From NCBI RefSeq assembly GCF_011075055.1, contig NC_058150.1:9276330-9340329 (forward strand): DNA of 64,000 nt, read 5' to 3'. This document shows positions 2,754 to 52,462 of this stretch, one piece after another. Positions within the stretch are counted from its first letter, which is position 1. Every line of letters starts with the position of its first letter. The position numbers and the translations under genes were made by a program. Below the pieces are notes generated by a model that worked only from the letters and a program-made list of their open reading frames with translations, searched no databases and had not been told where the DNA came from. This DNA is from Mangifera indica (Eukaryota > Streptophyta > Magnoliopsida > Sapindales > Anacardiaceae).

Positions 2754-3275
2754 TCAGCAATAACAATGACAACCTAACTTTCCATTATGTATTTTGCATT
2801 CACCGCCCCTACATTCATCTTGGCAAAATATGTTACATTTATCATCAGTGCACCCTTGCATAGCATTTTCTTTACAACATTTTCCAGCATCAACTTCAAT
2901 GCTTCCTATAAAATCCAAAACTACATTTTGTTAGAATTCCTGTAAAGCAGATTCATGAGATGTTATCTCGTATCGTATGACCATATCAACTTTGTGATAT
3001 GGTGAAACTATCCATATAAATATTGATCATGAAAATAAAGTTATGTGCAAGTTAATTTTTTTTCTTATTGAAAAACAAAAGAATTAAGAATAAAATTTAC
3101 CTAGAATGCTTGGCATAAATCAAACATCATCATATCAAACGTGCAAATTAACATAAACTTGACTTAGAATAATGAAATCGTGATGAACAAAACATATATA
3201 TATACATGGGACTTTACCTGTAGAGAGCACAAGTGCAACAAGAAGAATAATTATGAAAACTTTTATTTGAGCCAT
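2754..3275 (-). CDS. Defensin-like secreted cysteine-rich peptide, gene a of copy 1
   Basis: Two exons on the minus strand: exon 1 at 3218-3275 (58 nt) and exon 2 at 2754-2905 (152 nt). The 312-nt intron has GT..AG ends (donor GTAAAG, acceptor TTTTATAG) and is phase 1. The product is 69 residues. Residues 1-20 (MAQIKVFIIILLVALVLSTG) are a hydrophobic signal peptide; cleavage after A26 (V-D-A) fits the -3/-1 rule. The mature part has ten cysteines at 29, 30, 38, 43, 47, 51, 56, 65, 67 and 69. C43-x3-C47 with C65-x-C67 matches the cysteine-stabilised alpha-beta pattern, and G54-x-C56 to C65 resembles a gamma-core. A signal peptide exon plus phase-1 intron is typical of plant defensin-like genes. 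The likely role is extracellular defence or signalling; the exact function is unknown. Another secreted cysteine-rich class remains possible. Confidence 0.8.
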
Positions 3276-3805
3276 TATTTTTTTTTATTTCAATGAGCTT
3301 TGAAAAAAATTGAAATGGCGATTTAAAAATTGTGTTTTTGTGTATCTTGAATAAACTTGATGTACCCATTATATTGGCATGGTAATACATAATAAAGCTT
3401 AGGAAAGGATTCCAAAACATAAATACAACTTTTTATGTAGCTCTTGTAATTAGACAATTATAGATCTTTTCCTTTAATAATCTGCAACGCTACTATAAAT
3501 ACAACTTGTATTTCAATGAAAAAATATGCAAAAGTTATTTCACAATATCTTTCTTTCCTATCTTGTTTACCGAAAAGATACCAAATAATTAAAACAATGT
3601 TTGTGAACAATATTTATAACTCCTACTAGCTAGAAATTAATATTAAAAATAATTTAAAATATAAGTAAACCATGTATAAATTAAATTAAGTCATTCAAAA
3701 GAATTATAGGGAAGTCAGATTTCTATATAAAAAAATTAATTGAAATTTCAAGGGAAAACAATTGATTTTCACCCAAGGTTCACATTAATGAGCCTGTCCG
3801 ACTCT
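3276..3805. promoter_or_regulatory. Upstream region of peptide gene a, copy 1
   Basis: The first 150 bases align with the region upstream of gene b (9015-9175), including the degenerate TATA site near 3367-3375. Beyond about 3430 the sequence is AT-rich and not shared with gene b. No other gene is seen. From about 3316 onward this region is missing in copy 2. Confidence 0.45.
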
Positions 3806-4066
3806 CTAAGTTTGAAAATACAATTTACGAACCCACTGTCCAATTCTGCTAATGAAATGAGTTAGAATTTTTTTTTTTTTTATAGATTCATTGGAAAAAT
3901 AAAAATAGCTTTTACCATCTTTACTAAAGTTGAATAAGGTTTTCCTTCCAAAACTCTGAAAATTTTTTCCACCTCTGATTAATAAAATGCGGTCATGAGC
4001 CAACGTTACACTTATCAAGATATTATTTTCCCAACCTAGGGTTGTACAAAATTTTGATTGTGCCAA
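3806..4066 (-). other. Unassigned 86-codon open frame
   Basis: An open frame beginning MAQSKFCTTLGW with a poly-lysine stretch from an A-tract. I do not recognise a domain, signal peptide or intron. It lies in the part missing from copy 2 and has no paralogue near gene b. It may be a chance frame in old transposon DNA; there is no support for it as a gene. Confidence 0.15.
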
Positions 4067-4074
4067 TTAGGCAA

Positions 4075-4380
4075 AAAGCCACTAAAACTTATGGGAAGTT
4101 AAAATATTAAAAATATATAATGACATTTATTATAATTGACTTTATAGGAATATTTTATGGTATTTTTTTGGACATTTACATTTAAAGCCACTAAAACTAA
4201 TGGGAAGTTACTCAGTTAAAAACTTATTGTGACATTTATTATAATTGATATTAAAAATATATTTAAAGATATATTTCTTAAGGAATTAACAATAAAAACC
4301 ACTAAAGATTATGGAAAGTCAAAAGTACTTAAAATTTATTGAGACATTCATAATAATTGCTGCAGTAAGAAATTTTAATG

Positions 4381-4383
<3 letters not shown>
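4075..4383. repeat. Imperfect tandem repeats of about 110-130 bp
   Basis: Three degenerate units, each with 'ccactaaaa', 'atgg(g)aa(a)gt' and 'gacattt/cat.ataattg' blocks. Similar units occur at 9290-9610 and 52735-53050 upstream of the b genes. The array therefore belongs to the ancestral block that was copied with the peptide genes. Confidence 0.6.

Positions 4384-4437
<54 letters not shown>
4384..4437. repeat. (AT)27 microsatellite
   Basis: An uninterrupted 54-base alternating AT run. It creates a spurious open frame rich in Tyr-Ile on the plus strand. The paralogous b region (around 9610) lacks the run. Confidence 0.95.
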
Positions 4438-4440
<3 letters not shown>

Positions 4441-4494
4441 TTTACTATACCAAACAATTTGTGTTTTCGGATTATGTTTGTATTGTTTTAGTTT

Positions 4495-5039
4495 AGATTT
4501 CAGGGTAGAGACTCTGAACCAACATAAACTATGTTCGTATTGATCTATCACAACTCAAAATTAATTGAGATCATTTAATGATTCAACTCTTATAAGTGTT
4601 TTTAATGTTTTAATTTCTTCACGAAATTACTAATACGTACAACATAACATTTAGTTTTGTTTACAAATAATTAAAAAAATTTACATACCCAAAACCTTTA
4701 AAACACAAAAGGTCAATAATCTTATAAATCAAATCTTATTCTCACTACTAGAAAAACAAAAAATTTATAGACAAAAATAAAAAATAATCAAAGTAATTAT
4801 AATCATATGAAGATACAACTATATACAATATGTAAGGAGTTTAACTATTGTTGATACTTTTTCTTCAACATTTCTTTATTTTGCCCCAAACAAATTTTAC
4901 TACAATTAACATTTATTTGAATATTCAGTTTAGCTAAGGTTAGTTTAGGTTACCTTCATGCCAACTCTAACCCAATTCGATTTAGTTTTAAGTTATTTCG
5001 AGTTGACATGAATTAAATTTCGTGTAAAAAAAAACTCAA
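4495..5039. other. AT-rich spacer
   Basis: No coding motif or clear repeat is visible. It lies between the end of the gene-a block and the copia remnant, and is absent from copy 2. Confidence 0.5.
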
Positions 5040-6480
5040 TCATAACTCGAATTTTTGTGTTGTGTGGTGTTGAATTAATGGATTGCTTGACAAGTAGACA
5101 AATATCACAAGGGTTTAAATCCTTACCTTTGGCAAAGAGATTAAGGGACTTCTTCGTCAATACATGCACCCCTGTCTTACCAACCAGTCTTTTATGTCAC
5201 ATGTTTGGCGAAACATCATGTTCAACTATGTTAAGTTCATCATTTAACTCATCATCAAGAACCATTAATTAGGTCTTGTATAATCTATGTGAGCCTTGTC
5301 TTTAGCCAATACTATAGAACCTTTTGTGAGCTTCCATTTTCGATCACTAATCATGCTATGATAGCCTTCTACATCCAAGGGATAAACATGTATAATTCAG
5401 ATGCAAACCTAGTACATGATGCAAATTTTTTAGAGTTAATGTGTAACCCAACTCACTCTGCACACATACCATTTTAAATCCCATTATATTTGTATAATCG
5501 GTATCATTTATCTTTACTATATCAATTTTTCCTAGTTTGTACATAGAAATAATATCTCTCATTGGTGTTATGCTGTAACAAGCTCCTGAGTCAACAATCC
5601 ATTCTAAATTAGCATCAATTTCAACAACAAGATTACAATCTTCCTTAAAAGAAATTTCTACACTTCTTCATATACATTAGATATAGTAATAGTTGTATCT
5701 TGTTCATCTACCTTTTTCTTAATCTTTTGTTCTCTCTTGAAAGTTTTACAATTTCTCTTAATATGCCCTTCTTTGTCATAGTGATAGCAAGTGAAATTTT
5801 CTCAACTGTGACCTACCTCTAGATTTACCATACCCCTTAGAAACTTTACTCTTACTTTTACCCTCGTTCTCTGTGACAAGAACCTACCAAATATTTATAC
5901 CTATGTCTTTGTGTTTGGTCTCCTCATTATGCATGTTATCTTATACTACTTGCAAAGTTACTTCACTATTTAGAGCAGAGTTACTAAAAGACACCACCAA
6001 GGTCTCCCAATTATTTGGAAAAGAACTCAACAGAACTAGAGACTAACTCATCAACTAGATAAATCTTCTTGTTTTTGAACTGGTTTACAAAATCCTAAAA
6101 TCGCTCAAGTGATCTGCAACGCATTTTCCCCCTCTAAACAATACGTTCACCAACCTCCTGATTAAAAAGGTTTTATTCTTAATGTTCTTCCTCTAATACA
6201 TATCTTATAATTTCTTCCCCAAAACCTATGTATCAACTTCTTGTTTAATATGTGGGTAAACAATAAACTCTACCCCTTGCCTAATATTTCCTGCAACCTC
6301 TTTATGTAGCTTTTCCAATTATCTTCACATATCCTAACTGGCTTGTCAGATCCTAAATCGACAAGCTCAAATAAATCTTTGCGATAAAACAAATCCTCCA
6401 CCAATGACTTCCACATAGATTAATCGATAACTGAGAATTTAATCATGGAACATGTTGAAGTTGAACCTTCCATCTTAATT
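5040..6480 (-). pseudogene. Ty1/copia gag-protease-integrase remnant (TNT1-like)
   Basis: Read right to left on the minus strand. An ATG near 6475 opens a gag region with 'MWKSLVEDLFYRKDLF', recognisable as UBN2-type copia gag. A zinc-knuckle region follows near 5760-5830 and an aspartic-protease region near 5570-5610. Then come 'YKLGKIDIVKI' and 'LTLKNLHHVLGL' (5356-5562) and a GAG-pre-integrase piece 'KKSLNLFAKGKDLNPCD' (about 5070-5160). Frames are broken throughout. RT and RNase H are absent here. Closest in style to TNT1/94-like plant elements, by motif memory only. Confidence 0.75.
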
Positions 6481-6509
6481 CACATTATTAAGCACATGAC
6501 AAATTAATG

Positions 6510-6880
6510 TGGGCTTTGATACAACTTATTAGGGCCCAAAACAATAAAAATAATTTTACAAATTAATTAGGTCAATCAATCATAGAAAATATCATTTGAG
6601 TTCAAGAAATGAAACAATACAACCATAAACAAGAAAATTGGATTTATGAAAACCCTCTAATGTAAAAGAAAGAAGCCACAAGCCAAATTTCGAATTACAT
6701 CCACTATCAAGAAAAATCAGGTATAATCACTCCAAGTTAATTATGAACGTGAGATCATTAATCAAGAAATACCTAAATTATTTTCCCAGCTAAAGCCCTC
6801 ACATTACTATGTGATTATGGATCAATATAAGAGAAATAACTATTCAAATAATTCTTTAAATGTAACACCTATAAGTACAC
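6510..6880 (-). repeat. Degenerate copia LTR with primer-binding-site trace
   Basis: Just right of the gag start, the minus strand reads TTGTATCAAAGCCC, a decayed form of the initiator-Met primer-binding site. It is followed by LTR-like sequence that recurs at 7985-8340 and 40637-41010. This fits the 5' LTR of the minus-strand gag remnant. Confidence 0.55.
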
Positions 6881-7210
6881 TATAGGGCATTCTTGTCTTT
6901 TTGCATGATATATGATTTTGAAGAATTTAAATTAAGCTATTAGTGTTTGAGGGCTAGAACGGACGTTTTTCATAAAGGTGGATGCCCATTCATGTACTGA
7001 GAAGGGCAAATTTGTTATTTCATTTTGGTTGTGTGAAGTTTGTTAAGTGTGGAAGGATGAATGACTGTTCATGGTTGTATGCAAGCCTATTCATTAATTC
7101 GTTACACTTTGTATTAATTGCACTTAGAAAAAAAAAAAAAAGAAAGCTTTAGTGAGAAAAAAAGATATTTAGAGAAAACAATATATATTAGCAGCACTCA
7201 GGTAAGGTAA
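6881..7210. other. Unidentified insert between two copia gag remnants
   Basis: It begins TGTAACACC, like the Ty3/gypsy LTRs nearby, and includes an A-rich tract. There is no clear second end, so it may be a fragment of a solo LTR. Its duplicate is at 50317-50650. Confidence 0.35.
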
Positions 7211-7299
7211 ATACATTACGTAAATTAAATAAAGTAGTGTATATAAACTTTACTTTACTTTCCTCTCAACTTCATTAAAAAATGCAGAATACGTATTAT

Positions 7300-7950
7300 T
7301 TTGCATTTTGCCATAGTGATAACAAGTAAATTTTCCTCTCAACTGTGACCTACCCCTAGATTTAACCTGCCCCTTAGAAATCTACTTTTACTTTTACCTC
7401 TATTCTTTGTGACAAGAGCTTGCAAGGTATCTATACCCATGTCCTTGTGTTCGGTATCCTCATTATGCATGTTACCTTTTATTATCTGTAAAGTTATTAC
7501 ACCATTTGGAGAAAAGTTACCATAAGACACCACCAATGTCTCCCAATTATCTAGCAAAGAACTCAAGAAAAGTAGAGCTTGCAACTCATCATTTAGATGA
7601 ATCTTTATGTTTCCAACTAATAGACCAAATCCTAAAGATCACTCAAGTGCTCTGCAATAGATCCGCCTCTTTCAACTTAAAGTTCACCACCTTCTAATTA
7701 AAAAGACTTTATTATGAGCATTCTTCCTCTCATAGATATCTTATAATTACTTCCCCAAAACTAGTGCATCAATTTTATGTTTAATATGTTTAATGTATGG
7801 GTAAACACTGAACTTTATCAATTGTTTAATATTTTCTACAACTTTTCTATGTAGTTTTTCCCAATCATCTTCACATATCTGAGTTGTCTTGTTAAATCCT
7901 AATTTAATAAGATCAAATAAATCTTTGTGGTAAAACAAATCATTCATCTT
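7300..7950 (-). pseudogene. Second Ty1/copia gag remnant
   Basis: Two broken minus-strand frames give copia gag motifs: 'DLFYHKDLFDLI' and 'EDDWEKLHRKVVENI' (7747-7947), then 'LLDNWETLVVSYGNFSPNG' and 'ALVTKNRGKSKSR' (7339-7584). These match the N-terminal and pre-zinc-knuckle parts of UBN2-type gag. It is a paralogue of the remnant at 5040-6480. Protease, integrase and RT do not follow. Confidence 0.75.
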
Positions 7951-7984
7951 AATTCACACAATTAACCACACGCCCAAATAATTT

Positions 7985-8345
7985 GGGCACTAATATCACT
8001 TACAATAAAACTAATTGTGCAAATTAATTAAGTCAATCAATCATAGACAACATCGATTGTGTGAAGAAAATGAAACAAAACAATAAAAAAAAAAAAAACA
8101 GGACTTACATAGAAAAGCCTTCAATGTAGAAGGAAAAAATCATGGGCCAAATTCCAAATTAAATCCACTATTTATAAAACCCAAATGCAATTGCTTTCAA
8201 GTTACTTATGAACTTGAGATTAATAATAAAAAAATGCCCAAATTATTTTCCCTATTAAAATCTCATAATACTTTGTGATTATGAATCAATATAAGAGACA
8301 AAACACTTTAAATAATTCTTAAAACAAAACCCACTATCTATTATA
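7985..8345 (-). repeat. Degenerate copia LTR beside peptide gene b
   Basis: LTR-like sequence to the right of the second gag remnant, related to 6510-6880. It ends about where the block shared with peptide gene a starts (8350), so the b gene lies next to an old LTR. Confidence 0.5.
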
Positions 8346-8538
8346 AATATATATAACACTGAGAAAATAAAATTTTGTATAATTAAATAAAATAATCACA
8401 GATAAATACTTGAAACAAACAAAACTAGATCTTATAACTTATTCAATATTATTAAAATATTCCATAAAAATAACAAACTTTTAATTCTATATTTATTCAT
8501 TCTCTTTTATAAAGAGAAAGAATAATTTTCTTAAGAAA

Positions 8539-9014
8539 TTAGCAATTACAATGACAACCTAACTTCCCATTGCGTACTTTGCATTCACCACCCGTACATT
8601 CATCTTGGCAAAATGTGTTGCATTTATCATCAGTGCATCCTTGCATAGCATTTTCTTGACAACACTTTCCAGCATCAACTTCAATGCTTCCTATAAAAGC
8701 CAAAACAATATTTTGCTAGAATTCATATAAAATAGATTCACAAGATGTCGTATGAACATGTCAATGTTGTGACATGGTGAAACTATCAATATAAATATTG
8801 ATCATGAAAATAAAGTTATATGCAAGTTAAAATATTTTAAAAGAAACACAAAAGAATTAAGAATACTTTGCATAAACAAACATCACATGCAAATTAATAT
8901 AAACTTGATTTAGACTAATGAAATTGAGATGAACAAAAAAAAAAGGTGACTTTTACCAGTAGAGAGCACAAGTGCAACAAGAAGAATAATTGTGAAAACT
9001 TTGATTTGAGCCAT
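8539..9014 (-). CDS. Defensin-like secreted cysteine-rich peptide, gene b of copy 1
   Basis: Exon 1 is 8957-9014 and exon 2 is 8539-8690, with a 266-nt GT..AG phase-1 intron. The product is 69 residues, with the same start (MAQIKVF), signal peptide and ten-cysteine spacing as gene a. It differs at several mature positions: Q31 for K, T45 for I, T52 for R, V58 and R59 for I and H, and N68 for Y. All cysteines, the C-x3-C and C-x-C pairs and G54 are kept. A good TATA box lies about 95 bases upstream of the ATG (9106-9114), and an AATAAA lies about 45 bases past the stop (8492-8497). This is the best-preserved gene type in the window and is probably functional. Confidence 0.82.
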
Positions 9015-9105
9015 TATCTTTGTTTATATCAATCAGCTTTGAAAATAATTGATATGACAAGTCAAAAATTGTATTATCGTATATCTTGAGTATCCTTGAT
9101 GTGCC

Positions 9106-9114
9106 CTTTATATA
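9106..9114 (-). promoter_or_regulatory. TATA box of peptide gene b, copy 1
   Basis: On the minus strand this reads TATATAAAG, about 95 bases upstream of the ATG at 9014. A transcription start some 30 bases downstream would leave a 5' leader of about 60 bases. The equivalent site of gene a (about 3367-3375) is a weaker AATATAATG. Confidence 0.6.
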
Positions 9115-9671
9115 GGCATGATAATACACAATAAAGCATAGGAAAGGAATGCAAGAGAGGAATGGGTATAATAACATACCATTATTAGACTAATTAGAAG
9201 TTACAAATTTTTAATTAATTACTTAAAACGTAGATAATATTAAGAAATATTCTCAATCAACTTGGAATCACACAATCAAAATAAATTATAGCAAATTAAA
9301 AAACCACTAAAAATTTATGGTAATTTAAAAAATTATAGCAAGTTAAAAAATTAATAGGCATGGTGATATTTATTGTAATTGACTCTATAGTTTGGCCTTT
9401 TTTTTTGGGCATTTATAGTAAAAGCCTCTAAAACTAATGTAAAGTTAATCAATTAAAAACTTATAATAAATTATATGAAGAATATATTTAAAGACATATT
9501 TCTTCAAGAATTTATAATAAATGCAACTGAAAATTATGGAATGTCAAAAGTAATTAAAACTTATTGTGACATTTATAATAATTGCCACTACAAGAAATTT
9601 TAATGGTGATACATTTTTTTTGGTTTTAGTTTACCAGACAGTTTGTGTCCTCAAGTTGTGTTTATATCATA

Positions 9672-10341
9672 TGTAACACCTCTTTTCAAATATATACCCC
9701 TGATGGAAATATGACTTTAAGAAACTTGCACGACTGAACTATTTAAAATCATTAATACATAATCATAGTCATAAAACATGCAATAATGTGATGTAATAAA
9801 AATAACTACTTTATGAATCAAAACTCATAAAATAATGATTATCTAAAAATCTCTAATATAAAATCATTGTTTAAAATATTAAGAGTTGTTGTATCTAAAA
9901 ATAGTAATAATGACAAAAATAACACTATTAAATGCAAGTTAGATAAAGCTAAAGTACCAAAAATGCCCCTCTCCGTGTATAGCTACTCATTAGACCACTA
10001 GATTCTCTATTTGCCTCGTTACTCACCTCTGCTTGCAAAACATATAAAAAGAAAAACATGAGTAAAACTCAGTAGGTGGTGACCTTTCAACACCTAAAAC
10101 TAATATGAATAAACTAATACTAAAATTTCTGTTTCATCCGTAAGCTGAATGTGGTTACACTATGACACCTCAGTGCCTTGACATAGATTATAAACCAAGC
10201 ACTATGACACGACTATGTGTTTAAGTGTTAATCATGCTTCAAATTCTATTGTGAGTTTGGGGTATAGATTTTACGTTAACACGTCTCTTGAGGTTTATAT
10301 TCCAGGTATATAAGTGTATGTATATGGAGAGAAGTGTTACA
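9672..10341. mobile_element. Candidate solo LTR 'G' (670 bp)
   Basis: The ends TGTAACAC and GTGTTACA are perfect 8-bp inverted repeats. The interior has no coding sequence. Flanking 5-mers (tcata and taaaa) do not match, so the insertion is old or the ends are slightly off. Four copies occur, each left of an hAT fragment. Confidence 0.5.
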
Positions 10342-10433
10342 TAAAACAAAACCCTAATGATCTTGATAATACCCAATGATTAATCAAACGCGAATGGAAA
10401 ATCTAACCTTTTCTTTCTTTTATTTGCACTATA

Positions 10434-10866
10434 ATGTCTAATATATGGACTGATTTGAGACATCGATCTTTTATTAATCATGTTGTATATTCACTTAATG
10501 GTGTAGTGTTTTTGAAATCATTAGATATTTCTCGAAAAAGAAAAACTGGGATTTATTTAAAAGATATTGTTTCCTCAATGACTGAATCAATTGGCCAAGA
10601 AAATGTTGTACAATTCATAACTGATAATGGTAGCAATTTCACATCTATAGGTGACATGTTTCATTGGCACGTATCCTTGTATGTATAAGACAAAGAATGT
10701 TACTCATGGAATCTGACTTTTATTAAAAGACATATATGATGAAGTTGATTAGGTGAAAGTTACCACTAATGAAGTAAGATTGATAGTTATGTTCATGACA
10801 CGGTGCACAGTTCTTCATGCAATAATGAAAGAGTTCACCAAAGATAAACAATTAAGACAATGTTGT
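10434..10866 (+). pseudogene. hAT transposase fragment (DUF659 region)
   Basis: An 84-codon frame carries 'WTDLRHRSFINHVVYS', 'GVVFLKSLDIS' and 'ENVVQFITDNGSNF'. These match the DUF659 part of plant hAT transposases (WTD..R..LIN, GT.FLKS.DAS, ENVVQVVTDNA.N). After stops, 'RCTVLHAIMKEFTKDKQLRQ' matches the next conserved stretch. The fragment then ends abruptly where LTR F begins. The N-terminal BED domain and C-terminal dimerisation domain are missing, so it is inactive. Confidence 0.75.
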
Positions 10867-13800
10867 TGTTAGAGTATGCCCTAGAAACCAATCGCTTTGT
10901 CGATTTTAGGGCTATATATTTTGCATATACATTTATTAATAAAGAAAGAGTTTTGTCATACTTCACATGTTTACTGTATCACTTTTATATATATGTTGTT
11001 ATTGTCTATTATATCCATATTAGTTGTATACATATGAGATGTGAAAGGTTCCGATGAGTTTCAATAAACTTTATCAAATTGTTTCCTACATAGGCAATAT
11101 GTTTGAGCAATAATACTATATAGTAAGCATGTGCTATATCACCATAGTATATTATCGGATGATATTATGCATGGTGGACGTACACATGGGTAAACAATAG
11201 TTACATTTGATTTTTGGAGAACTGATCAAAGGTTATTATGTTATATTGTTTATTGAATGTGACTACTAAATGATGATCACATGAGCATTGATATGTAATC
11301 AATGATATATCGTAAATCATACTAATGTATAAATCTTTTGACCTAAGATATCACGGTTATACTTTATTCTGGGATGTATAGTTCATATGGCGTATACCAT
11401 GCACTAATAATGTCTCGTTTAGAAGTCGATTTGATCATATGTTACTTGAGCGAGAACACATGTGATGATCATATAGGGATCTTGTAACACCCGGATTCAA
11501 GTATGCCAATGAACTCTACTTCCAAAATTACCCCTAGAGTTGATTTTATAACTTCTTGTTTAAAGAAATTGTAAAAGAATTATAGAAAACTACTAAATGA
11601 GCAATAATTTTCAAAGGGGGTAAAATGGTCATTTTAGAAGGATTTAAGAGACAAAATGAGAATTTAAATTGAATGACACACTTGAAATTATACGGTGGTG
11701 CTAAGGGTTTTTGGTAATCGGCTAAGGATAAAATAGTCATTTATGGAAAAGGTTAAGGGTAAATTAGTCCAAAAAGCTTATAAAACCAACCAACTATTCA
11801 TTTTCTTCTTCCTTAGCCAAGAATCTCCATAATTTTAGCTAAAGTTTTTCCTTCAAGCAAAATTCATCAAAAAACCTAGCAAAACCACCTAATTTCCAGA
11901 GTCTCCAATTATAAAAAGTGTAGATCTATCAATTCTAGTAAGTTCTAAAGTAAAAAATTTAATTTTTAAAAGATGTCAGGTTTAGGGTTTTGATGGATGA
12001 TTATATTTTTGGTTGATTAAGGTTGCTAGGAAGAAGAAAAGAAGGAGGATAAGCTTAAATCACCTAATTAGCAAAGAAAAGTTAAGAATTTCATACTTTA
12101 CATACTTGAAGTAATTTGAGTTAGGTTATTTAAATAACCTTTACTTATATAAGTGTGTAAGGTATTAGAATTAAGGTTATTTATGCTTAAAAGGATTAAA
12201 AAAATTCATTAGGATTCATGATGTAATTTTTGGCCATAAGGGTATTTTAGACATTTTATATTCCTAGGGTTAGCTTAGTGGATTTTGTGTTGAATATATA
12301 AGAAATGATAAATTGATGAAAGAATTTGCATTAAGGGTAAGCATGTAATTTTATCCATAAGGTTAATTTTTGCTTAATTATGTGCATGATTTGTGGATTA
12401 ACCCTTATACTCATAAGGGCAAAAATGTCATTTTATGTGATGTAGGTTAATTTTGCTTAATTATGTGCATGATATGTGTAAAAAAACCATTATAATAAAT
12501 ATATATATTCATATGGAATGCATGAGATATAAGTAAATGCATGAGAAAATAATCTGATGCCCAATGAGGCTTGAAAAAAGTAAGGAAAAACAATGAATGG
12601 GCATAATTCATATTATGGTTATACATGCATACATGAGAAATCATAGCATATGCATGATTTCAGAAAAATAAAGAAAGAGAAAAAAAACATTTTTTAAGTT
12701 ATGCATGTTTTTCAGAAATGGAAAACAAGTGTTTTTGGTTCTATAATGACTCATATGATACAGGAAAGCAGAAAGCATGCTTAAAATCCTTACACACGAG
12801 TTGTACTATATGGACAGCAAAGAAAAAAAAATAAAGAAATATGCGTGTAAGAGAGGATTGTACCTTGTATGGTGACTGCGAGTACTGTCATATGTAGTCT
12901 AGACCGGTCAATAAAAATATGTGACCAAAAAAAAAAAGAGAAAGAATTAGCAAATATTTTATGAAACTCATTTGTATTAGAATCATGCATGTAAGCCTGT
13001 GTGGTTGATAAAGAGTTGAGAAAGATGTACGACTAGAAAATTGAAAAGTCATGATACTCATATATGCATAAATCATAACGAGTGAATCATATTTGTATAG
13101 TAAGGAAAGGAATAAATGTGTGAATGAAGAGAATTATGATATGTGGTTAATGCGTGTTCCATGTAAATTATTTTGTATATGAATAGCCCAGACACGCTGA
13201 GTATGGAAGAGATTAGTACTGGTATGAAATGCTTTAAGTATTGAGTATGATTTTCCTATTGAGCCATGATCGCTCACTCCGTTTAATTTAATATTTTTAC
13301 AGGCAAAGAGTTGCAGCAAAAATTCTCAGGGAGCACTAGTGAGACATGAGGCTAAAGGAGAAAGGCACCATATTTTTGTTGATTTATATGTCTTGATGTA
13401 TATGTGAATATATGCATGAATATATACTTGATATAAATATTGGTGGATACGTATATATCTTGTTTCCTATCGGTATATATGTGATTATGTATATATATGG
13501 CTAGTCATTGAAATTGGTTATAAAGTTTCTGTGGGTGCTAATTTCTATAATGGTTAATATTAAGTATTTATTTTGTTAATTGTGATTATATTGATGAAAA
13601 TCCAGTCAATTGATAGGACTGGTTTGTGTGAATTGCTAAATAGGAGTGTTACAAGGTATTAAAAAAAAAACTTCCCCGAGCCCTCTAAAATAGGGGAACT
13701 CTTGCCGTTTTTCTGTAACACACCTATTGGTTAGAAGAGATTACAGATCTGTTGGCTCAACTGTTTCTAAGTTCTCATGCAAATATCGAGAAATATAGAA

Positions 13801-14671: not shown

Positions 14672-14685
14672 AATAGTATTAGAGC

Positions 14686-41010: not shown

Positions 41011-41324
41011 ATAAAGAAAAATTATGACATTTTCTTTCTTTGATTTGTGTCCACTAACAAAGCAAGGAGAATAAATTCTCCTCCTATGCAATTCTTGCTT
41101 TGCCATCCGTGCTCCAACCAAAAAACCAATAAACCAATAGTAACATATCCATATCACTTTATAATAAAGACATTAACGTAATGTAATGTCTTTATAGATA
41201 ATTGTCCAAAGTTAGTGAAGATTAAACAGTAATTTAGCACTCTTCAAATCCCACATCACAAGCACGTGTTTTTGGACCACAAGGCTATTTGACCAAAAGC
41301 ACTCCTTTTAGCCCACGATCACCT

Positions 41325-41696
41325 GCGATGAGAGTTTTGTTTTGTTGCACCATCTTGGACAGAGACAACACCATTTATTGAATATAGGCCAAAAGATTTG
41401 TTTCCACTCAAGGTAAGGCAAAAACCTGAGGTGACCATTTTCAATTTTCAATAACCCAAATATCAATGTATAAACAAAATTTTATTGAAAAACTCAATTA
41501 AAATTATGGACAAATTCATCATTTAATAAAAAAATTTAAATAACATAAAATTTATTATATTTAGGTTTTCAAAGTTGGAAAGGGTCATTTTGGATTTTAA
41601 CTATATCTTGGGTGGAAACAAGTCTTTTGACCTATACACAATAGATGATGTTGTTTATGTCCAAGATGGTGTAACAAAACAGAAGTCTCTCATTCC
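41325..41696. repeat. Foldback (MITE-like) element, copy 2
   Basis: Duplicate of the inverted-repeat element at 493-861, with the same arm pairing and only a few substitutions. Confidence 0.5.
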
Positions 41697-42192
41697 CTAG
41701 GGTCTTTATCTCTATGGTGAGCAAAATACTCAAAACACACCATCTCAGAACAAGGCTACCCTGGGTAGATTTTAGTGTCTAATTTCTATTTTGATTACAC
41801 CCTCTAAGAAGCTGGAACTATTTGTAATGGGATCTAAGCCATCAAGACCGTTTTCCAGCCACTAATTCACCTTCTTTTGTACTCTTAGAAAATGGTAATT
41901 ATTTATCATCACCGTTACAGTTAATTAACTCAATCAAAGTGGACTATTTTAATCTCGTATATCAAAAAAGCAATTTATGATATGATACCTTATCTTTGTA
42001 TTAACATAACTAAGAGGATGACCGACTATCCAATATTACCATGACAAGTTCAATTCTATACACATTAGTGCGGGAATAAATTACATTGGGGATTTATAAT
42101 GTAAAACATCAGTTGATTACAATGGAAGTAGCTAACTATTTTTTTTTTTTTTGGATGAGTAAGTAGATAATTAGATAGATTCAGAAAAAAAA

Positions 42193-42414
42193 TATTACAA
42201 AGTAGAGAGGATATAGAATGGAAAGGAAAATGTCACTTTCTCATTAATTTGCTCTGAGTCACAGAATGGCTTTATACAGTCTCAAGTCTCCAGAGTTTGT
42301 TACGTTTGGAAGATATGCTTAACAGAAAAAGATACCAGAAAAATATATGATACAAAATATTCCATAATGAAATAATAGAATAACTAATTACAGAACATTC
42401 CAGATATGCTAATA
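42193..42414 (-). mobile_element. 3' LTR of the young copia element
   Basis: 222 bp. On the minus strand a purine-rich tract (from 'ctccccctcaag' at 42415-42426) precedes it and would act as the polypurine tract. Confidence 0.93.
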
Positions 42415-42421
42415 CTCCCCC

Positions 42422-44568
42422 TCAAGATGGAGAGTACAGATTTTGAAATCCCATCTTGCCCAGAAGAAATTGGAATTGTGCAGGATGCAGTGCCTTTGTC
42501 AATAGGTCTGTGAGTTGATTATTTGTTGTCACGTGCATGGTCTTGATGACACCAGCTTGTATTTTCTCACGCACCAGATGACAGTCAATTTCAATGTGTT
42601 TGGTGCGCTCGTGGTAGACCGGATTGGCTGCTATGTGTAAAGCAGCTTGGTTGTCACAATAAAGAAGAGCTGGTCCTGAGTGTTTAACTTGTAGTTTTTG
42701 AAGTAGTCTCAACAGCCAAACAATCTCGTAAGTGGTGTTAGCCATAGAGCGATACTCGGCTTCAGCTGAGGATCACGATACAACTTCTTGTTTCTTAGAC
42801 TTCCAGGAAATGAGGGAAGAACCAAGAAAAATGCAAAAACCAGTGAGAGAGCGTCGAGTGTCAGGACAAGTACCCCAATCCGCATCTGTAAATGCCTTGA
42901 GCTGTAATGTTGAGTTTGAAGAGAAGAAAAGGCCTTGACCAGGTGTCTTCTTAATGTACTGTAAAACACGTACGGCTGCTTGTAAATGAGTAGTTTGCGG
43001 AGCTGCTAAGAATTGAGAGAGACGATTGACTGAATAGCTCAAGTCAGGGCGTGTAATAGTTAGATAAATCAACTTTCCAATTAACCTTCGATAGCTTGTT
43101 GGATCTTCAAGTAAATCACCATCGAATCTTGATAGTCTTAAGTTAGGCTCTATGGGAACAGAGGATGGTTTGCAACCCAAATATCCTGCTTCAGAAAGCA
43201 ATTCCAAAGCATACTTTCTTTGACAGATGGAAATCCCAGCTGCTGACTTGGCAACTTCTATACCCAAAAAGTATTTCAAATCTCCTAAATCCTTCATTTT
43301 GAAACGTTTGTTGAGAGCAGTCTTTAAATTGTTCACAGCTTCTTGGTTATTGCTAGCAATGATGATGTCATCAACATATACTAAGAGAGCCAAAAATGAA
43401 TGATTGTGAGACTTGATGAATAAGGAGTGGTCACTTGAGGATTGGGTGAAACCTTCTTCAACTAAGGCACTCGAGAACTTATGGAACCATTGTCGAGAAG
43501 CTTGTTTTAAACCGTAGAGTGACTTATGGAGCCTACACACGACATTGGAAGGTAAAGTCTCCCCCTCTCGACAAACATACCCTGGAGGGAGAGCCATATA
43601 AACTTCTTCAATAAGATCACCATGAAGAAAAGCATTGGTGACATCAAGTTGAGTAAGGGACCAGCGAAAAATGGCAGCCAAAGAGAGTAAAACCTTAACA
43701 GTTGCAAGCTTTGCCACGGGAGAAAAAGTGTCAAGGTAATCAAGTCCTTCTTGTTGGGTATATCCTTTGGCAACAAGGCGGGCTTTATGTCTTTCTATGC
43801 TGCCATCAGCTCGAAACTTAGTTTTATACACCCATTTGCAACCCACCGGGTGTTTATTAGGAGGAAGTGAAACGATGGACCAAGTCTTATTCTGTTTTAA
43901 AGCCTGCAACTCAGCATGCATAACATCACGCCACACCTGAAACTCAATAACTTGTGAAAAAGATGTAGGTTCAGTTTGTGAAGAGATGGCAAAGATAAAT
44001 GTGCGATATGGCTGGGACAGTTTTTTGTAGCTGAGAGAGGAAGAAATAGGATGAGAAGTAGATGACTTGGTAGCTAGATAACAGTGATAGTCAGCTAGAT
44101 AGGACGGAGGTTTACGAACACGTTGTGATCTTGCAGAGAGTGATGGAGGTTCATTGACATTGGAAGGATGAGGGCTGGACAAAGCAGACTCAGGAACAGG
44201 GAGAACGGACCTAGGCAAGACACGGTCACTAAAAATATCATGGTAATCCAATGGTGGTGGAGTTTGTGCAAATGGGAAAATGGATTCGTGAAACTTGACA
44301 TCTCGTGAGATGTAGATTTTGTTACTCTCTAAATCAAGCAACTTATAACCTTTATAGCCAAAAGGATAACCAAGAAAGACAGAGGCTCGAGCACGAGGAC
44401 TGAACTTTGTACGCTGATTAGTAAGAGTAGAACTATAGCAAAGGCAACCAAATGTGCGAAGGTGAAAATAAGATGGTTTTTTGTTGTTCAACAATTCAAA
44501 TGGGGTCTGATTAGAAAGTAGTGGTGATGGTGTTCGATTAATTAGATAAACAGCTGTCAAAACACAAT
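42422..44568 (-). pseudogene. Young copia reverse transcriptase and RNase H
   Basis: It continues gag-pol in the next frame. The integrase C-terminal region has 'PFELLNNKKPSYFHLRTFGC'. The RT has 'KWVYKTKFRADGSIERHKAR', 'QLDVTNAFLHGDL' and the catalytic 'LLVYVDDIIIAS'. RNase H has 'ADWGTCPDTRRSLTGF'. A TGA at 42773-42775 replaces the Arg codon normally found in [12 protein letters not shown]. The same frame then runs on through '[20 protein letters not shown]' and '[12 protein letters not shown]' to the natural end at 42422. One nonsense change is the only defect in this half. Confidence 0.93.
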
Positions 44569-46712
44569 CCCCCCCAATAAGGCAGAGGAACACATGATTG
44601 GAATAATAAAGCACGGGCCACATTAAGTATGTGTTGGTGCTTACGCTCAACCACTGAGTTTTGTTGGGGAGTGTCTACACATGAGTGATAAGGGATGATC
44701 CCTTTGGAACGAAAAAAATCAGTAAATGCCAATTCAGGTGCATTATCAGAACGTACAGATTTAATAGTGACTGCATATTGATTGTAAATAAGGGTATAGA
44801 AGTCAAGAAAAATGGAAAGGACTTCTGACTTTGTACGTAAAAGGTAGACCCATGTAGCACGCGTGCAATCATCAACAATGGTGAGAAAATATTTGTGACC
44901 AGTGGGAGTTGTGACATGAAAACTACCCCAAATATCAATGTGAACCAAATCAAATGGATTTTTAGACAGATTATTTTGTGAAGGAAATGGAAGACGTTTT
45001 TGCTTAGCCAAGTGACAAACACGACAATGAGAAGATAAATGAGATAAAGAACTAGGAATTTGTAATTCATTATGCAAGAGTTGGATTTTTACAGGGGAGG
45101 GATGTCCTAATCGAAAATGCCAAACATCACTCTTAGACATTACAGAGAAAGAACTAATTGAATTACAAAAAACAGTCCCTAGCTCTAGAAAATAAAGATT
45201 TCTTTGTCTTCTACCCTTCCCAATCATCGAGCCCTGAGTGAGGTCCTGGATGACACAAGAATCAGCAAGAAAATTAACATGACAGTGATGACTACGAGTG
45301 AGTGCACTAACACTAAGCAGATTAAAAGAGAAAAAAGGGACATATAAAACATTATGTAAAAACAGAGTGTTGGATAATTTTACGGTTCCAATGCGAGTGA
45401 TTACGACATTATGACCATTAGGAAGAGTGACAGTGGTGTTATTGATTTGTGTAGAAGTGGTAAACAAGGAAAGATTGCAACACACGTGATGTGTGGCACC
45501 AGTGTCAATGATCCAAGCATCAACAGGTATAGGAGGGTGAGAAAATGAAAAAACAGAGAAAGGGGTACTGTAAATCTGAGAAACAGAGTGTTCAATTGAG
45601 TGAGTTTCAGGTGCGTTGGTACCATGCTGATGTAGTTGCGAGCTAAGATAAGCAATAAGCTGCTGCATCTGTTCGTTGGAGAGAGATCCAGGTGATGGAG
45701 AGGAAGCAGTGGCAGTAGCAACTGTGGGTGGGAATAGTCGTGTTTTAGTTTGTTCAGCGGTAGGGTTTGAGTTGGAATGAAGAGAGCTCCCTTGGGCTTT
45801 AGGCTTGGGCTTGTAACCAGGTGGGTAACCATGCAACTTGTAACATCGGTCCACTGTATGGCCTGTGAGCCCACAATGAGAGCAGATAGGGCGGTCACGT
45901 CTTTGCTTCCCTGATGAAATTGTAGCGACAGTGGCTGGTTGTAACGAAACTGGAGTTGACGAGGTAGGCAAAGAAGTAGAGACATTGAAGGCCAAAGAAT
46001 CAGCTGGTGTCGCTGCAGGTGAATCTGTCCCAATTGAGCGTTGACGCTCCTCTTGAACAACGAGGTTGAAAACTTTTGAGATAGGGGGCAGTGGGTCAAT
46101 CATCAAGATCTGCCCTCGCATCCCTGCATAAGATTCATTGAGCCCCATCAAAAACTGCATCACGTATTCCTGTTGTTGATAATCCATCCAAGTCTTCATA
46201 TCGCCACATTGACAGACTGGAATAGGTTGAAAATTCCTGAGTTCATCCCAAAGTATTTTCAGACGCGTGTAATAGGTATTCACATCGAAAGAACCCTGGC
46301 TAAGACCGTGTAATTGCTGCTTGATCTGGAAAATACGTGGAGCATTACTTTGGTGAAACCGATCATGAAGGTCTAACCAAACGGCATGAGCGGAGTCAAA
46401 ATAAAGAAGGCTATCTGCGATCTCCTTAGAAACAGAATTGAGAAGCCAAGTCGTCACCATACTATTGCATCTGGACCAAATGCTGGCGGAGGGGTCGTTG
46501 GGAAGAGGCTTTGGAAGGCCACCATCGACAAACCCAATCTTGTTTTTAGCATTAAGTGCGATAAGCATGGCTCGACTCCAAGTATTATAGTTTGGACCTG
46601 TGAGAATGTGGGAAACGAGAGTAAGACCGGGATGGTCACCATTGTGAAGAAAAAACGGACTATGAACATCATCCATGAAGGTGGAGGGGTAGCAACTAAA
46701 GGCTGAAAACAA
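44569..46712 (-). pseudogene. Young copia gag, protease and integrase
   Basis: UBN2-type gag includes 'NYNTWSRAMLIALNAKNK' and 'AVWLDLHDRFHQSNAPRIFQ'. A CCHC knuckle follows (CSHCGLTGHTVDRC, about residue 280). The protease active site is 'WIIDTGATHHV' (about 398). The GAG-pre-integrase domain has 'WHFRLGHPS'. The integrase core has all three acidic residues, in 'HIDIWG', 'RSDNAPE' and 'VVERKH'. The frame shifts at a run of seven C/G bases (44569-44575) where six would keep it open. The true start may be the ATG eleven codons in (MDDVHSPFF). Confidence 0.93.
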
Positions 46713-46790
46713 TTATTTTTATTGTTATTCTAACCACCATGGGCGAGAGGGCTTAGAGGCTAGAAGAAGAAAAAACAGTAATGGAAGGGA

Positions 46791-46805
46791 AAAGCTCTGA
46801 TACCA
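46791..46805 (-). promoter_or_regulatory. Primer-binding site of the young copia element
   Basis: The minus strand reads TGGTATCAGAGCTTT, a perfect match to the initiator-Met type site, directly abutting the LTR. Confidence 0.9.
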
Positions 46806-47027
46806 TATTACAAAGTAGAGAGGATATAGAATGGAAAGGAAAATGTCACTTTCTCATTAATTTGCTCTAAGTCACAGAATGACTTTATACAGTCTCAAGT
46901 CTCCAGAGTTTGTTACGTTTGGAAGATATGCTTAACAGAAAAAGATACCAGAAAAATATATGATACAAAATATTCCATAATGAAATAATAGAATAACTAA
47001 TTACAGAACATTCCAGATATGCTAATA
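46806..47027 (-). mobile_element. 5' LTR of the young copia element
   Basis: 222 bp, 220 identical to the 3' LTR. Confidence 0.93.
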
Positions 47028-47043
47028 AAAAAAATTAAAAGAT

Positions 47044-47851
47044 AAAGCTAGCAAACCATAGGATATGAACACTTAAATATGTATAATCCTAATTTTTCAG
47101 TTGTACTATATACAATATCATCGCCCCTTAAGATTTGTGCGATGAGGCATGACGAAAATATCAATATGAATACTATGAAACCTATTAGAGTCAAGACCCT
47201 TAGTGATGACATCAACAACTTAATCAACACTTGAAATGTATTTAACAAGCAGCTATTCACGACACACTTTTTCTCTAATAAAATGAATATAAATTTCAAT
47301 ATGTTTAGAGTGAGCATACTGAGTAAGGTTGGCAGCCATGTAGTTGCGCTGACATTGACAGTGTAGATAGTTGGAGGTTACAAGAAATTGAAGGATAGTT
47401 CATCAAGCTTATTTTTTAACCAACATTCCTCTGCTATTGCACTTGCTAAGGCATGATATTTTGTTTAAGCTAAAGAGTGACTAATTATAGCAGTCATGGA
47501 ACACTTTGTATTAGGGCACCTTAGCCAATAAACATCACAATAAATAGACATATGGTCAATAAAACCATAAAATAATTGGAGGTAATAAGTAACAGTACCA
47601 TTGATGTTACTAATAATATTCTTGATTGCTTTCAAATAATTTCCTCAAGAAGCAGTTAACAATTAACAAACATGATTAGTTGCAAAACCAATATCGGGTG
47701 GAGTAAATGTTATATACTACAACACGTCAACAAGACTACGATGGAACTAAACATCATATAATAAAGGACTCTCAGTGTCATAGAGTCTATAGTGTGACAA
47801 CTGGTTTAGCATGCTAAAGACCACTTTGTCGAATAATAAAAGTTGTATATT
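47044..47851 (-). pseudogene. Ty1/copia RT/RNase H remnant, copy 2
   Basis: Duplicate of the remnant at 1340-2170, with the same broken motifs. The young Ty1/copia element at 42193-47027 inserted in an A-rich tract just beside it. The two are unrelated events: this remnant is far more decayed. Confidence 0.72.
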
Positions 47852-48427
47852 AGACTAATCTAAAAAGATCCCTTCTAAAATCTTAGTAACCAAAATTCCT
47901 AAAAAATAATTTAAAGAACCAAGATTAGTCTTTGCTTAGGACGTCATTTTTTTTTTGTGCTTATACAATGATCTTGTTAGTGTAACCTTTATTTTACTTC
48001 ATGTTAGTAATTTATGGCTCAGTGGAACAAATAATTGGAGAAATATGATATGATTCTTGCGGCTTAGAAAAAGTCTTTTGTTGCCCATTAGGTGCATAAC
48101 ATTTTGCAGGGCATTGGATGACGGCTTTTAGTTTAAGAGATTGGATAACTCTGAAAAAATATATTTCTGCATAATTAAATCAAAAGAAACACAAATATGA
48201 ATCACAGATAAATACTTGAAACAAACAATATTAGATCTTATAACTTGTTTATTATTAAAAATATTCCATCCAAGTAACAAAATTTTTGTATCTATATTTA
48301 TTCATTCTCTTTTATAAAGAGAAAGAGTAAACTAATTTTCTTAAGAAATTATAAAGTTCTTCAAATTTTATTAGTCTAATGAAATTGTAAGGTAAAAATA
48401 GATCTCGATCGCAAATAGCCTTCTAAA

Positions 48428-48949
48428 TCAGCAATAACAATGACAACCTAACTTTTCATTGTGTATTTTGCATTCACCGCCCCTACATTCATCATGGCAA
48501 AATATGTTACATTTATCATCAGTGCATCCTTGCATAGCATTTTCTTTACAACATTTTCCAGCATCAACTTCAATGCTTCCTATAAAATCCAAAACTACAT
48601 TTTGTTAGAATTCCTGTAAAGCAGATTCATGAGATGTTATCTCGTATCGTATGACCATATCAACTTTGTGATATGGTGAAACTATCCATATAAATATTGA
48701 TCATGAAAATAAAGTTATGTGCAAGTTAATTTTTTTTCTTATTGAAAAACAAAAGAATTAAGAATAAAATTTACCTAGAATGCTTGGCATAAATCAAACA
48801 TCATCATATCAAACGTGCAAATTAACATAAACTTGACTTAGAATAATGAAATCGTGATGAACAAAACATATATATATATATAGGACTTTACCCGTAAAGA
48901 GCACAAGTGCAACAAGAAGAATAATTGTGAAAACTTTTATTTGAGCCAT
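48428..48949 (-). CDS. Defensin-like peptide, gene a of copy 2, promoter lost
   Basis: Exon 1 is 48892-48949 and exon 2 is 48428-48579, with a 312-nt GT..AG phase-1 intron. The 69-codon frame is intact with all ten cysteines. Compared with gene a of copy 1 it has four amino-acid changes (I8T, S18F, Q48H, G61E) and three silent changes. G61E lies in the loop between C56 and C65. The sequence upstream of the ATG matches copy 1 for only about 40 bases. It is then joined, through about 20 bases of filler, to copia gag remnant, so the TATA region is gone. It may be silent or may have gained a new promoter. Confidence 0.75.
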
Positions 48950-48984
48950 TATTTTTTTTTATTTCAATGAGCTTTGAAAAAAAT

Positions 48985-49014
48985 TGAAATGGCATATGAG
49001 TCATTTCAACAATC
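48985..49014. other. Deletion junction with filler DNA upstream of peptide gene a, copy 2
   Basis: Sequence matching copy 1 ends after 'aaattgaaatggc' (copy 1 about 3315) and resumes at 'tggtgttatgctgtaac' (copy 1 about 5566). About 20 bases that match neither side lie between. This looks like end-joining repair that removed about 2.25 kb. Confidence 0.75.
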
Positions 49015-49930
49015 CTTGGTGTTATGCTGTAACAAGCTCCTGAGTCAACAATCCACTCTAAATTAGCATCAATTTCAACAAGAAGATTACAATCTTCCTT
49101 AAAAGAAATTTCTACACTTCTTCATATACATTAGATATAGTAATAGTTGTATCTTGTTCATCTACCTTTTTCTTAATCTTTTGTTCTCTGTTGAAAGTTT
49201 TACAATTTCTCTTAATATGCCTTTCTTTGTCATAGTGATAGCAAATGAAATTTTCTCAACTGTGACCTACCTCTAGATTTACCATACCCTTTAGAAACTT
49301 TACTTTTACTTTTACCCTCGTTCTCTGTGACAAGAACCTACAAAATATTTATACCTATGTCTTTGTGTTTGGTCTCCTCATCATGCATGTTATCTTATAC
49401 TACTTGCAAAGTTACTTCACTATTGGAGTAGAGTTACTAAAAGACACCACAAAGGTCTCCCAATTATTTGGAAAAGAACTCAACAGAACTAGAGACTAAC
49501 TCATCAACTAGATAAATCTTCTTGTTTTTGAACTGGTTTACCAAATCCTAAAATCGCTCAAGTGATCTGTAATGCATTTTCCCCCTCTAAACAATACGTT
49601 CACCAACCTCCTAATTAAAAAGGTTTTATTCTTAACGTTCTTCCTCTAATACATATCTTATAATTTCTTCCCCAAAACCTATGTATCAACTTCTTGTTTA
49701 ATATGTGGGTAAACAATAAACTCTACCCCTTGCCTAATATTTCCTGCAACCTCTCTATGTAGCTTTTCTAATTATCTTCACATATCCTAACTGGCTTGTC
49801 AGATCCTAAATCAACAAGCTCAAATAAATCTTTGCGATAAAACAAATCCTCTATCAATGACTTCCACATAGATTAATCGATAACTGAGAATTTAATCATG
49901 GAACATGTTGAAGTTGAACCTTCCATCTTA
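49015..49930 (-). pseudogene. Ty1/copia gag-protease remnant, copy 2
   Basis: Duplicate of 5566-6480. Its left part (the 5040-5565 equivalent) was removed by the deletion that also took the promoter of peptide gene a. The same gag and protease motifs are visible, and the frames are broken. Confidence 0.73.
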
Positions 49931-49964
49931 ATTCACATTATTAAGCACATGACAAATTAATGTG

Positions 49965-50320
49965 GGCTTTGATACAACTTATTAGGGCCCAAAACAATAA
50001 AAATAATTTTACAAATTAATTAGGTCAATCAATCATAGAAACTATCATTTGAGTTCAAGAAATGAAACAATACAACCATAAACAAGAAAATTGGATTTAT
50101 GAAAACCCTCTAATATAAAAGAAAGAAGCCACAAGCCAAATTTCGTATTACATCCACTATCAAGAAAAATCAGGTATAATCACTCCAAGTTAATTATGAA
50201 GGTGAGATCATTAATCAAGAAATACCTAAATTATTTTCCCAGCTAAAGCCCCCACATTACTATGTGATTATGGATCAATATAAGAGAAATAACTATTCAA
50301 ATAATTCTTAAACTGTAACA
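49965..50320 (-). repeat. Degenerate copia LTR, copy 2
   Basis: Duplicate of the LTR remnant at 6510-6880, in the same place relative to the gag remnant. Confidence 0.55.
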
Positions 50321-50756
50321 CCTATAAGTACACTATAGGGCATTCTTGTCTTTTTGCATGATATATGATTTTGAAGAATTTAAATTAAGCTATTAGTGTT
50401 TGAGGGCTAGAATGGACGTTTTTCATAAAGGTGGATGCCCGTTCATGTACTGAGAAGGGCAAATTTGTTATTTCATTTTGGTTGTCTGAAGTTTGCTAAG
50501 TGTGGAAGGATGAATGATTGTTCATGGTTGTATGCAAGCCTATTCATCAATTCATTACACTTTGTATTAATTGCACTTAGAAAAAAAAAAGAAAGCTTTA
50601 GTGAGAAAAAAAGATATTTAGAGAAAATAATATATATTAGCAGCACTCAGGTAAGGTAAATACATTACGTAAATTAAATAAAGTAGTGTATATAAACTTT
50701 ACTTTACTTTCCTCTCAACTTCATTAAAAAATGCAGAATACGTATTATTTTGCATT

Positions 50757-51402
50757 TTGCCATAGTGATAACAAGTAAATTTTCCTCTCAACTGTGACCT
50801 ACCCCTAGATTTAACCTGCCCCTTAGAAATCTACTTTTACTTTTACCTTTATTCTTTGTGACAAGAGCTTGCAAGGTATCTATACCCATGTCCTTGTGTT
50901 CGGTATCCTCATTATGCATGTTACCTTTTATTATCTGCAAAGTTATTACACCATTTGGAGAAAAGTTACCATAAGACACCACCAATGTCTCCCAATTATC
51001 TAGAAAAGAACTCAAGAGAAGTAGAGCTTGCAACTCATCATTTAGATGAATCTTCATGTTTCCAACTGATAGACCAAATCCTAAAGATCACTCAAGTGCT
51101 CTGCAATGGATCCGCCTCTTTCAACTTAAAGTTCACCACCTTCTAATTAAAAAGACTTTATTATGAGCATTCTTCCTCTCATAGATATCTTATAATTACT
51201 TCCCCAAAACTAGTGCATCAATTTTATGTTTAATATGTTTAATGTGTGGGTAAACACTGAACTTTATCAATTGTTTAATATTTTCTACAACTTTTATATG
51301 TAGTTTTTCCTAATCATCTTCACATATCTGAGTTGTCTTGTTAAATCCTAATTTAATAAGATCAAATAAATCTTTGGGGCAAAACAAATCATCCATCTTA
51401 AT
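50757..51402 (-). pseudogene. Second Ty1/copia gag remnant, copy 2
   Basis: Duplicate of 7300-7950 with the same motifs. The frame 50788-51057 carries the 'DNWETLVVSYGNFSPNG' block. Confidence 0.73.
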
Positions 51403-51429
51403 TCACACAATTAACCACACGTCCAAATA

Positions 51430-51795
51430 ATTTGGGCACTAATATCACTTACAATAAAACTAATTGTGCAAATTAATTAAGTCGATCAATCATAGACAAC
51501 ATCGATTGTGTGAAGAAAATGAAACAAAACAATCAAAAAAAAAATACAGAATTTACATAGAAAAGCCTTCAATGTAGAAGGAAAAAATCATGGGCCAAAT
51601 TCCAAATTAAATCCACTATTTATAAAACCCAAATGCAATCGCTCTCAAGTTACTTATGAACATGAGATTAATAATAAAAAAATGCCCAAATTATTTTCCC
51701 TGTTAAAATCTCATAATACTTTGTGATTATGAATCAATATAAGAGAAAAAACACTTTAAATAATTCTTAAAACAAAACCCACTATGTATTATAAA
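51430..51795 (-). repeat. Degenerate copia LTR beside peptide gene b, copy 2
   Basis: Duplicate of 7985-8345. Confidence 0.5.
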
Positions 51796-51986
51796 TATAT
51801 ATAACACTGAGAAAATAAAATTTTGTATAATTAAATAAAATAATCACAGATAAATACTTGAAACAAACAAAACTAGATCTTATAACTTATTCAATATTAT
51901 TAAAATATTCCATAAAAATAACAAACTTTTATTTCTATATTTATTCATTCTCTGTTATAAAGAGAAAAAATAATTTTCTTAAGAAA

Positions 51987-52462
51987 TTAGCAATTACAAT
52001 GACAACCTAACTTCCCATTGCGTACTTTGCATTCACCACCTGTACATTCATCTTGGCAAAATGTGTTGCATTTATCATCAGTACATCCTTGCATAGCATT
52101 TTCTTGACAACACTTTCCAGCATCAACTTCAATGCTTCCTATAAAATCCAAAACAATATTTTGCTAGAATTCGTATAAAATAGATTCACAAGATGTCGTA
52201 TGAACATGTCAATGTTGTGACATGGTGAAACTATCAATATAAATATTGATCATGAAAATAAAGTTATATGCAAGTTAAAATATTTTAAAAGAAACACAAA
52301 AGAATTAAGAATACTTTGCATAAACAAACATCACGTGCAAATTAATATAAACTTGATTTAGACTAATGAAATTGAGATGAACAAAAAAAAAAGGTGACTT
52401 TTACCAGTAGAGAGCACAAGTGCAACAAGAAGAATAATTGTGAAAACTTTGATTTGAGCCAT
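51987..52462 (-). CDS. Defensin-like secreted cysteine-rich peptide, gene b of copy 2
   Basis: Exon 1 is 52405-52462 and exon 2 is 51987-52138, with a 266-nt phase-1 intron. The predicted 69-residue peptide is identical to gene b of copy 1. The only coding differences are two silent ones (in codons 38 and 52). The upstream region is retained, with a TATA box at 52554-52562. Identical protein with silent changes fits purifying selection or a recent origin. It is likely functional if the duplication is real. Confidence 0.82.

Follow-up and report, generated by a model that had tools for sequence, protein, structure and literature searches.

Four short genes on the minus strand of a stretch of Mangifera indica DNA (contig NC_058150.1, positions 9,276,330 to 9,340,329; 64,000 nucleotides (nt), here termed the window) encode peptides with ten cysteines each. 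They are very probably plant genes of the defensin-like family PF10868, a reading that explains the evidence as a whole better than any other. The genes fall into two types, A and B, which would descend from an older duplication. Later, a pair consisting of one A and one B gene appears to have been copied together with its surroundings, and the second A gene lost its promoter region. The loci themselves are ordinary in that they add further members of a catalogued family, situated in a retroelement-rich duplication. The gene models are as follows.

2754..3275, minus strand: gene A1; exon 1 3275-3218, intron 3217-2906 (312 nt), exon 2 2905-2754 including the stop codon; 69 amino acids
8539..9014, minus strand: gene B1; exon 1 9014-8957, intron 8956-8691 (266 nt), exon 2 8690-8539; 69 amino acids
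48428..48949, minus strand: gene A2; exon 1 48949-48892, intron 48891-48580 (312 nt), exon 2 48579-48428; intact in its coding sequence but missing the upstream region
51987..52462, minus strand: gene B2; exon 1 52462-52405, intron 52404-52139 (266 nt), exon 2 52138-51987; protein identical to that of B1

Gene models and family membership

Splicing in silico joins a 58-nt exon 1 to a 152-nt exon 2 across a phase-1 intron in all four genes, and every intron has the form GTAAA...AG. The resulting coding sequences are each 210 nt long, contain no internal stops and specify 69 residues, ten of them cysteine. A sequence-only reading of the window had proposed these spliced peptides, with one intron phase and one set of splice signals, and its coordinates, lengths and cysteines all proved correct. 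When exon 1 is instead read on without splicing, its frame meets a stop within the intron in all four copies, and the open segment that holds exon 2 offers no methionine ahead of the mature part. B1 and B2 differ by two silent changes only, while A1 and A2 differ at four residues.

Six-frame reading of the window yields four open ten-cysteine segments, all on the minus strand, and three further cysteine-rich segments whose pattern is unrelated to that of the A and B genes. The ten-cysteine pattern, in a strict and a looser form, occurs four times across the window's six frames and in none of 100 simulated first-order Markov windows, and a chance origin was rejected on this count. A tblastn search of the window with A1 and one Xanthoceras relative as queries recovered the four genes and otherwise weak scraps with an expectation value (E) of 0.04 or worse.

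Splicing, expression, secretion and disulfide formation are predicted from sequence. Exon 1 would encode a signal peptide and exon 2 the mature part, about 43 residues long, with cleavage after A26 according to our own, predictor-free reading of the sequence. Up to five disulfides would keep the mature peptide in a cysteine-stabilised alpha-beta (CS-alpha-beta) fold, and once secreted it would act extracellularly, probably by means of the conserved hairpin C-R-G-G-E-C ... C-H-C-Y-C.

Profile searches of the spliced peptides against Pfam place them in PF10868 (Defensin_like), with 30.7 bits for A1 and 29.5 bits for B1 against a curated cut-off of 25.1. The exon-2 frames alone also exceed the cut-off (31.4 bits for A1, 29.9 for A2). 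Neither A1 nor B1 matches any other Pfam family at E ≤ 10, and membership of the classic Gamma-thionin family (PF00304) was accordingly rejected. The earlier description of the peptides as defensin-like yet distinct from the eight-cysteine plant defensin is upheld, and the profile search, the search for relatives and the fold prediction all favour it. NCBIfam, which is built for prokaryotes, gave nothing above cut-off for the peptides. A sequence search of the PDB with A1 alone reached E 2.9 at best, and profile searches of the same database 0.023 and 0.1, in both cases to "Antibacterial factor-related peptide 2"; none of these matches is significant.

Protein searches widened with the query: a single peptide found two proteins, a four-row profile seven, and a six-row profile 51 homologues at E ≤ 10, some of them weak. 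The relatives come from Pistacia, Xanthoceras, Cephalotus, Papaver, Macleaya, many grasses, Ensete, Zostera and Victoria. Those from the Sapindales (Pistacia and Xanthoceras) are closest at 70-80% identity, the Pistacia match standing at 80%. No Brassicaceae were noticed among the names of the six-row-profile matches, a search that needs shared short words and so leaves their absence unproven. The full ten-cysteine pattern is present in 37 of the 51 homologues; in the other 14 the model is truncated, runs on or reads an intron, or cysteines have been lost or gained. A1 and B1 were aligned with 23 of the 51 homologues, picked for completeness and spread; across these 25 rows the ten cysteines, G53, G54 and H66 of the mature part are invariant, and R52 and K57 nearly so. 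The suggestion that the peptides might form a new subfamily therefore falls, since the same ten-cysteine pattern, already catalogued as PF10868, is found in Victoria and Zostera as well as in grasses, poppies and Sapindales. On this evidence the loci are best placed as further members of a known flowering-plant peptide family. The term "little-described" is fair as to function: a text search of one collection of papers found no paper under "PF10868" and hardly any under "DUF2667", which we take to be the older name of the family.

Two relatives bear on the exon layout. P0007 (65 residues) continues from exon 1 into an intron similar to that of A1, departing from the peptide at the same point, and P0002 (55 residues) begins in what appears to be the end of an intron and passes into exon 2 where the window genes do. 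Both are unannotated read-throughs, which supports the two-exon layout and is no proof of splicing. Several Xanthoceras models (P0006, P0008, P0011, P0018, P0020 and P0027) end abruptly or continue into other sequence partway through the cysteine domain, and look as if introns were misannotated or the copies had decayed. Relatives within one species also appear to share contigs (Pistacia P0001 and P0003, Cephalotus P0009 and P0010, and several from Xanthoceras), which suggests that PF10868 genes are clustered in other plants too.

The structure prediction that the earlier reading had proposed came out in favour of a CS-alpha-beta fold. The AlphaFold2 model has a mean predicted local distance difference test (pLDDT) score of 90.9 and a beta-alpha-beta-beta order, with strands predicted at residues 5-8, 27-33 and 36-42 and a helix at 14-22. 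Its nearest neighbours in Foldseek are the plant defensins AtD90 and Ah-AMP1, with weak E-values.

Subtype differences and possible function

The two subtypes differ in the hairpin. Subtype B has CTGGEC and CHCNC instead of CRGGEC and CHCYC, that is, the changes R52T and Y68N. Both positions are otherwise nearly constant among the homologues: the CxGGxC motif is present in 45 of 51, with R in all 45, and the C-x-C-x-C end in 42 of 51, with Y in 37 and F in five. By comparison with Pistacia P0001, residues Q31, T52 and N68 look derived in B. Subtype B could serve as a natural variant for finding out which of the hairpin residues matter.

For function, a conserved receptor ligand or a reproductive or developmental signal is put at even chances. 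The lean toward signalling is due to the hairpin, which hardly varies across the family, and to the enrichment of maize DUF2667 members in the embryo sac. In the part of PMC4269116 available, two maize DUF2667 genes have log2 ratios (embryo sac over nucellus) of 11.38 and 13.08, and the gene with the latter ratio also drops by log2 2 after pollination. Across the family, from Victoria to the grasses, the cysteines and hairpin change little, and this together with the maize data would make PF10868 a sensible family in which to seek a conserved peptide signal. Rice Os01g0584500, the name attached to homologue P0024, is raised in seedlings overexpressing OsDi19-3, as confirmed by quantitative reverse-transcription PCR (excerpt of PMC12115221), so at least one family member is expressed outside the embryo sac too.

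Direct antimicrobial defence is possible but somewhat less probable than a signalling role. Under this explanation the genes would make antifungal peptides of the apoplast, the A-B pair and its copy would represent the ordinary expansion of a defence cluster, and the hairpin changes of B would reflect diversification under pathogen pressure. The Pfam title of PF10868, "cysteine-rich antifungal protein 2, defensin-like", agrees with this, as does the habit of clustering suggested by the shared contigs of Pistacia, Xanthoceras and Cephalotus. However, the hairpin varies unusually little for a peptide of defence, since other defence families are usually less constant. The fold neighbours AtD90 and Ah-AMP1 are antifungal (for AtD90, according to the portion of PMC7557933 at hand), but the mature window peptides are near-neutral to acidic, with isoelectric points (pI) of 5.6 to 6.9, and the same portion of PMC7557933 describes the two defensins with pI below 6 as inactive on fungi at the doses tested. 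The family median is pI 7.5, with 16 of 37 members below 7. The remaining weight falls on other roles, such as metal binding.

A more ambitious proposal, which we consider improbable, is that PF10868 serves mainly not in defence but as a secreted ligand, ancient and present throughout the angiosperms, with a receptor keeping the hairpin CRGGEC...CHCYC constant. The five disulfides of the peptide would combine two bridges, the end-to-end one of classic defensins and the one that links the N-terminus of AtD90 to its second strand, each using one cysteine of the CC pair, and subtype B (R52T, Y68N) would be a duplicate with altered or antagonistic binding.

Duplication, selection and surrounding retroelements

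The four genes did not survive independently of one another. Self-comparison of the window shows one A-B pair duplicated along with its surroundings, in collinear blocks of the same order and orientation.

1..19605: copy 1 of the duplicated segment, starting at or beyond the window edge; blocks 2-1366, 1349-3319, 5559-15053 and 17367-19605
40832..60723: copy 2 of the duplicated segment; blocks 40832-42202, 47024-48993, 49013-58482 and 58475-60723
3320..5558: stretch upstream of A1 that copy 2 lacks, with 19 bases (48994-49012) there in its place; blocks stop at 3319/48993 and restart at 5559/49013

Identity is 97.5% between 2-1366 and 40832-42202, 98.4% between 1349-3319 and 47024-48993, 97.3% between 5559-15053 and 49013-58482, and 96.1% between 17367-19605 and 58475-60723. 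Because the blocks match in order and orientation, the comparison indicates that a single segment carrying an A and a B gene was copied. An additional collinear match, 39223-40377 to 61284-62439 (96.6%), is situated between and after the blocks.

The second A-B block could instead be an assembly effect, in which the assembler placed the other haplotype in tandem, so that the haploid genome would really have a single A and a single B gene. The 96-98% identity of the blocks, together with their insertions and deletions, could also be seen between two haplotypes of an outcrossing tree. The window contains no N, however, and the additional match between and after the blocks is placed as in a tandem copy; neither point is decisive, and we hold the assembly effect to be unlikely.

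Upstream of the A genes the copies part. Positions 3320-3409 align with the upstream regions of B1 and B2, so at least this part is ancestral and was lost from copy 2. The earlier description of four intact genes therefore stands for the coding sequences and fails for A2, in which the common 5′ leader gives way to other sequence after 44 nt and the TATA region is missing. TATA-type sites lie at -101 in B1 and B2, and A1 carries the variant CAATATAATGG. Within the 1.97-kb block A1 and A2 differ at 32 positions, five of them in a 49-bp stretch where exon 1 ends (3205-3253 versus 48879-48927).

Purifying selection acts between A and B. A1 and B1 differ by eight silent changes in 41.0 sites against seven replacing changes in 166.0 sites (one-sided Fisher p 0.0027), so that the proportion of replacing changes (pN) is below that of silent ones (pS). 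The other pairs give p values of 0.0002 (A1-B2), 0.0063 (A2-B2), 0.040 (B1-B2), 0.046 (B1-A2) and 0.13 (A1-A2); the six tests share sequences and are uncorrected. In addition, alignment of A with B has no gap columns in the exons and 46 in the intron. A1 and A2 show the opposite trend, with seven differences in 210 exon positions against two in 312 of the intron (p 0.034; against the rest of the block, p 0.083). This excess and the four residue changes could reflect loosened constraint in the promoterless copy, although the numbers are small.

That all four are decaying remnants, recently silenced duplicates whose peptide is no longer made, might be read from the lost upstream region of A2, the TATA-like site of A1 that is unlike B's, the exon excess between A1 and A2 and the retroelement domains close by, but it is very unlikely given that frames, splice sites and ten cysteines are intact in four of four copies, that pN is below pS between A and B and that B1 and B2 differ only silently.

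The retroelement setting was surveyed, without gene prediction, by sending to Pfam ten of the 27 stop-free stretches of at least 110 amino acids. This survey covers in part the claim that the peptide genes are the only well-preserved host genes: nine of the ten stretches carry retroelement domains, and the tenth had no match. A copia-type element at 42192-47027, present in copy 2 only, has 223-bp end repeats (42192-42414 and 46805-47027) that are 99.1% alike, and Pfam finds gag, integrase and reverse transcriptase in its long open stretches. A repeat of about 2.3 kb also occurs in whole or partial copies in both orientations (15054-17373, 19695-21973, 22665-24941, 29937-30658 and 36916-39222). 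Four copies contain arrays of a 33-34-bp unit. This repeat may be a long terminal repeat, since two copies flank Ty3/gypsy-type coding stretches.

Comparison with known systems

The PF10868 relatives share with the window peptides ten cysteines in the same order, the GG and CHC motifs and a profile score above cut-off. They differ in that Pistacia has one glycine between the second and third cysteines and Xanthoceras a longer loop, both of which the window peptides lack. A wheat survey (PMC6329339) describes a subgroup with 10 or 11 cysteines, which may or may not be PF10868. The layout of signal-peptide exon, intron and mature-peptide exon, as read here from the genomic letters, is the same as that given for two-exon plant cysteine-rich peptide genes in the part of PMC3924332 at hand.

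Classic plant defensins (PF00304, such as Ah-AMP1, 1BK8) have in common with the window peptides the predicted CS-alpha-beta fold and a signal peptide-like N-terminus. The window peptides, however, have no PF00304 match, and their ten cysteines are otherwise arranged, with an adjacent CC and a C-x-C-x-C end. Arabidopsis AtD90 (PDB 7JN6, Defensin-like protein 204) is a fold neighbour of the predicted model and shares the spacings C-x4-C-x3-C and C-x8-C-x-C, going by the sequence in the section of PMC7557933 consulted. The same section gives AtD90 eight cysteines and nine histidines, compared to ten and two in the mature part of A1. The mature peptides have two (A1), three (A2) or one (B) histidines and thus lack the high-histidine feature of the AtD90 group, while AtD90, unlike the window peptides, does not match PF10868.
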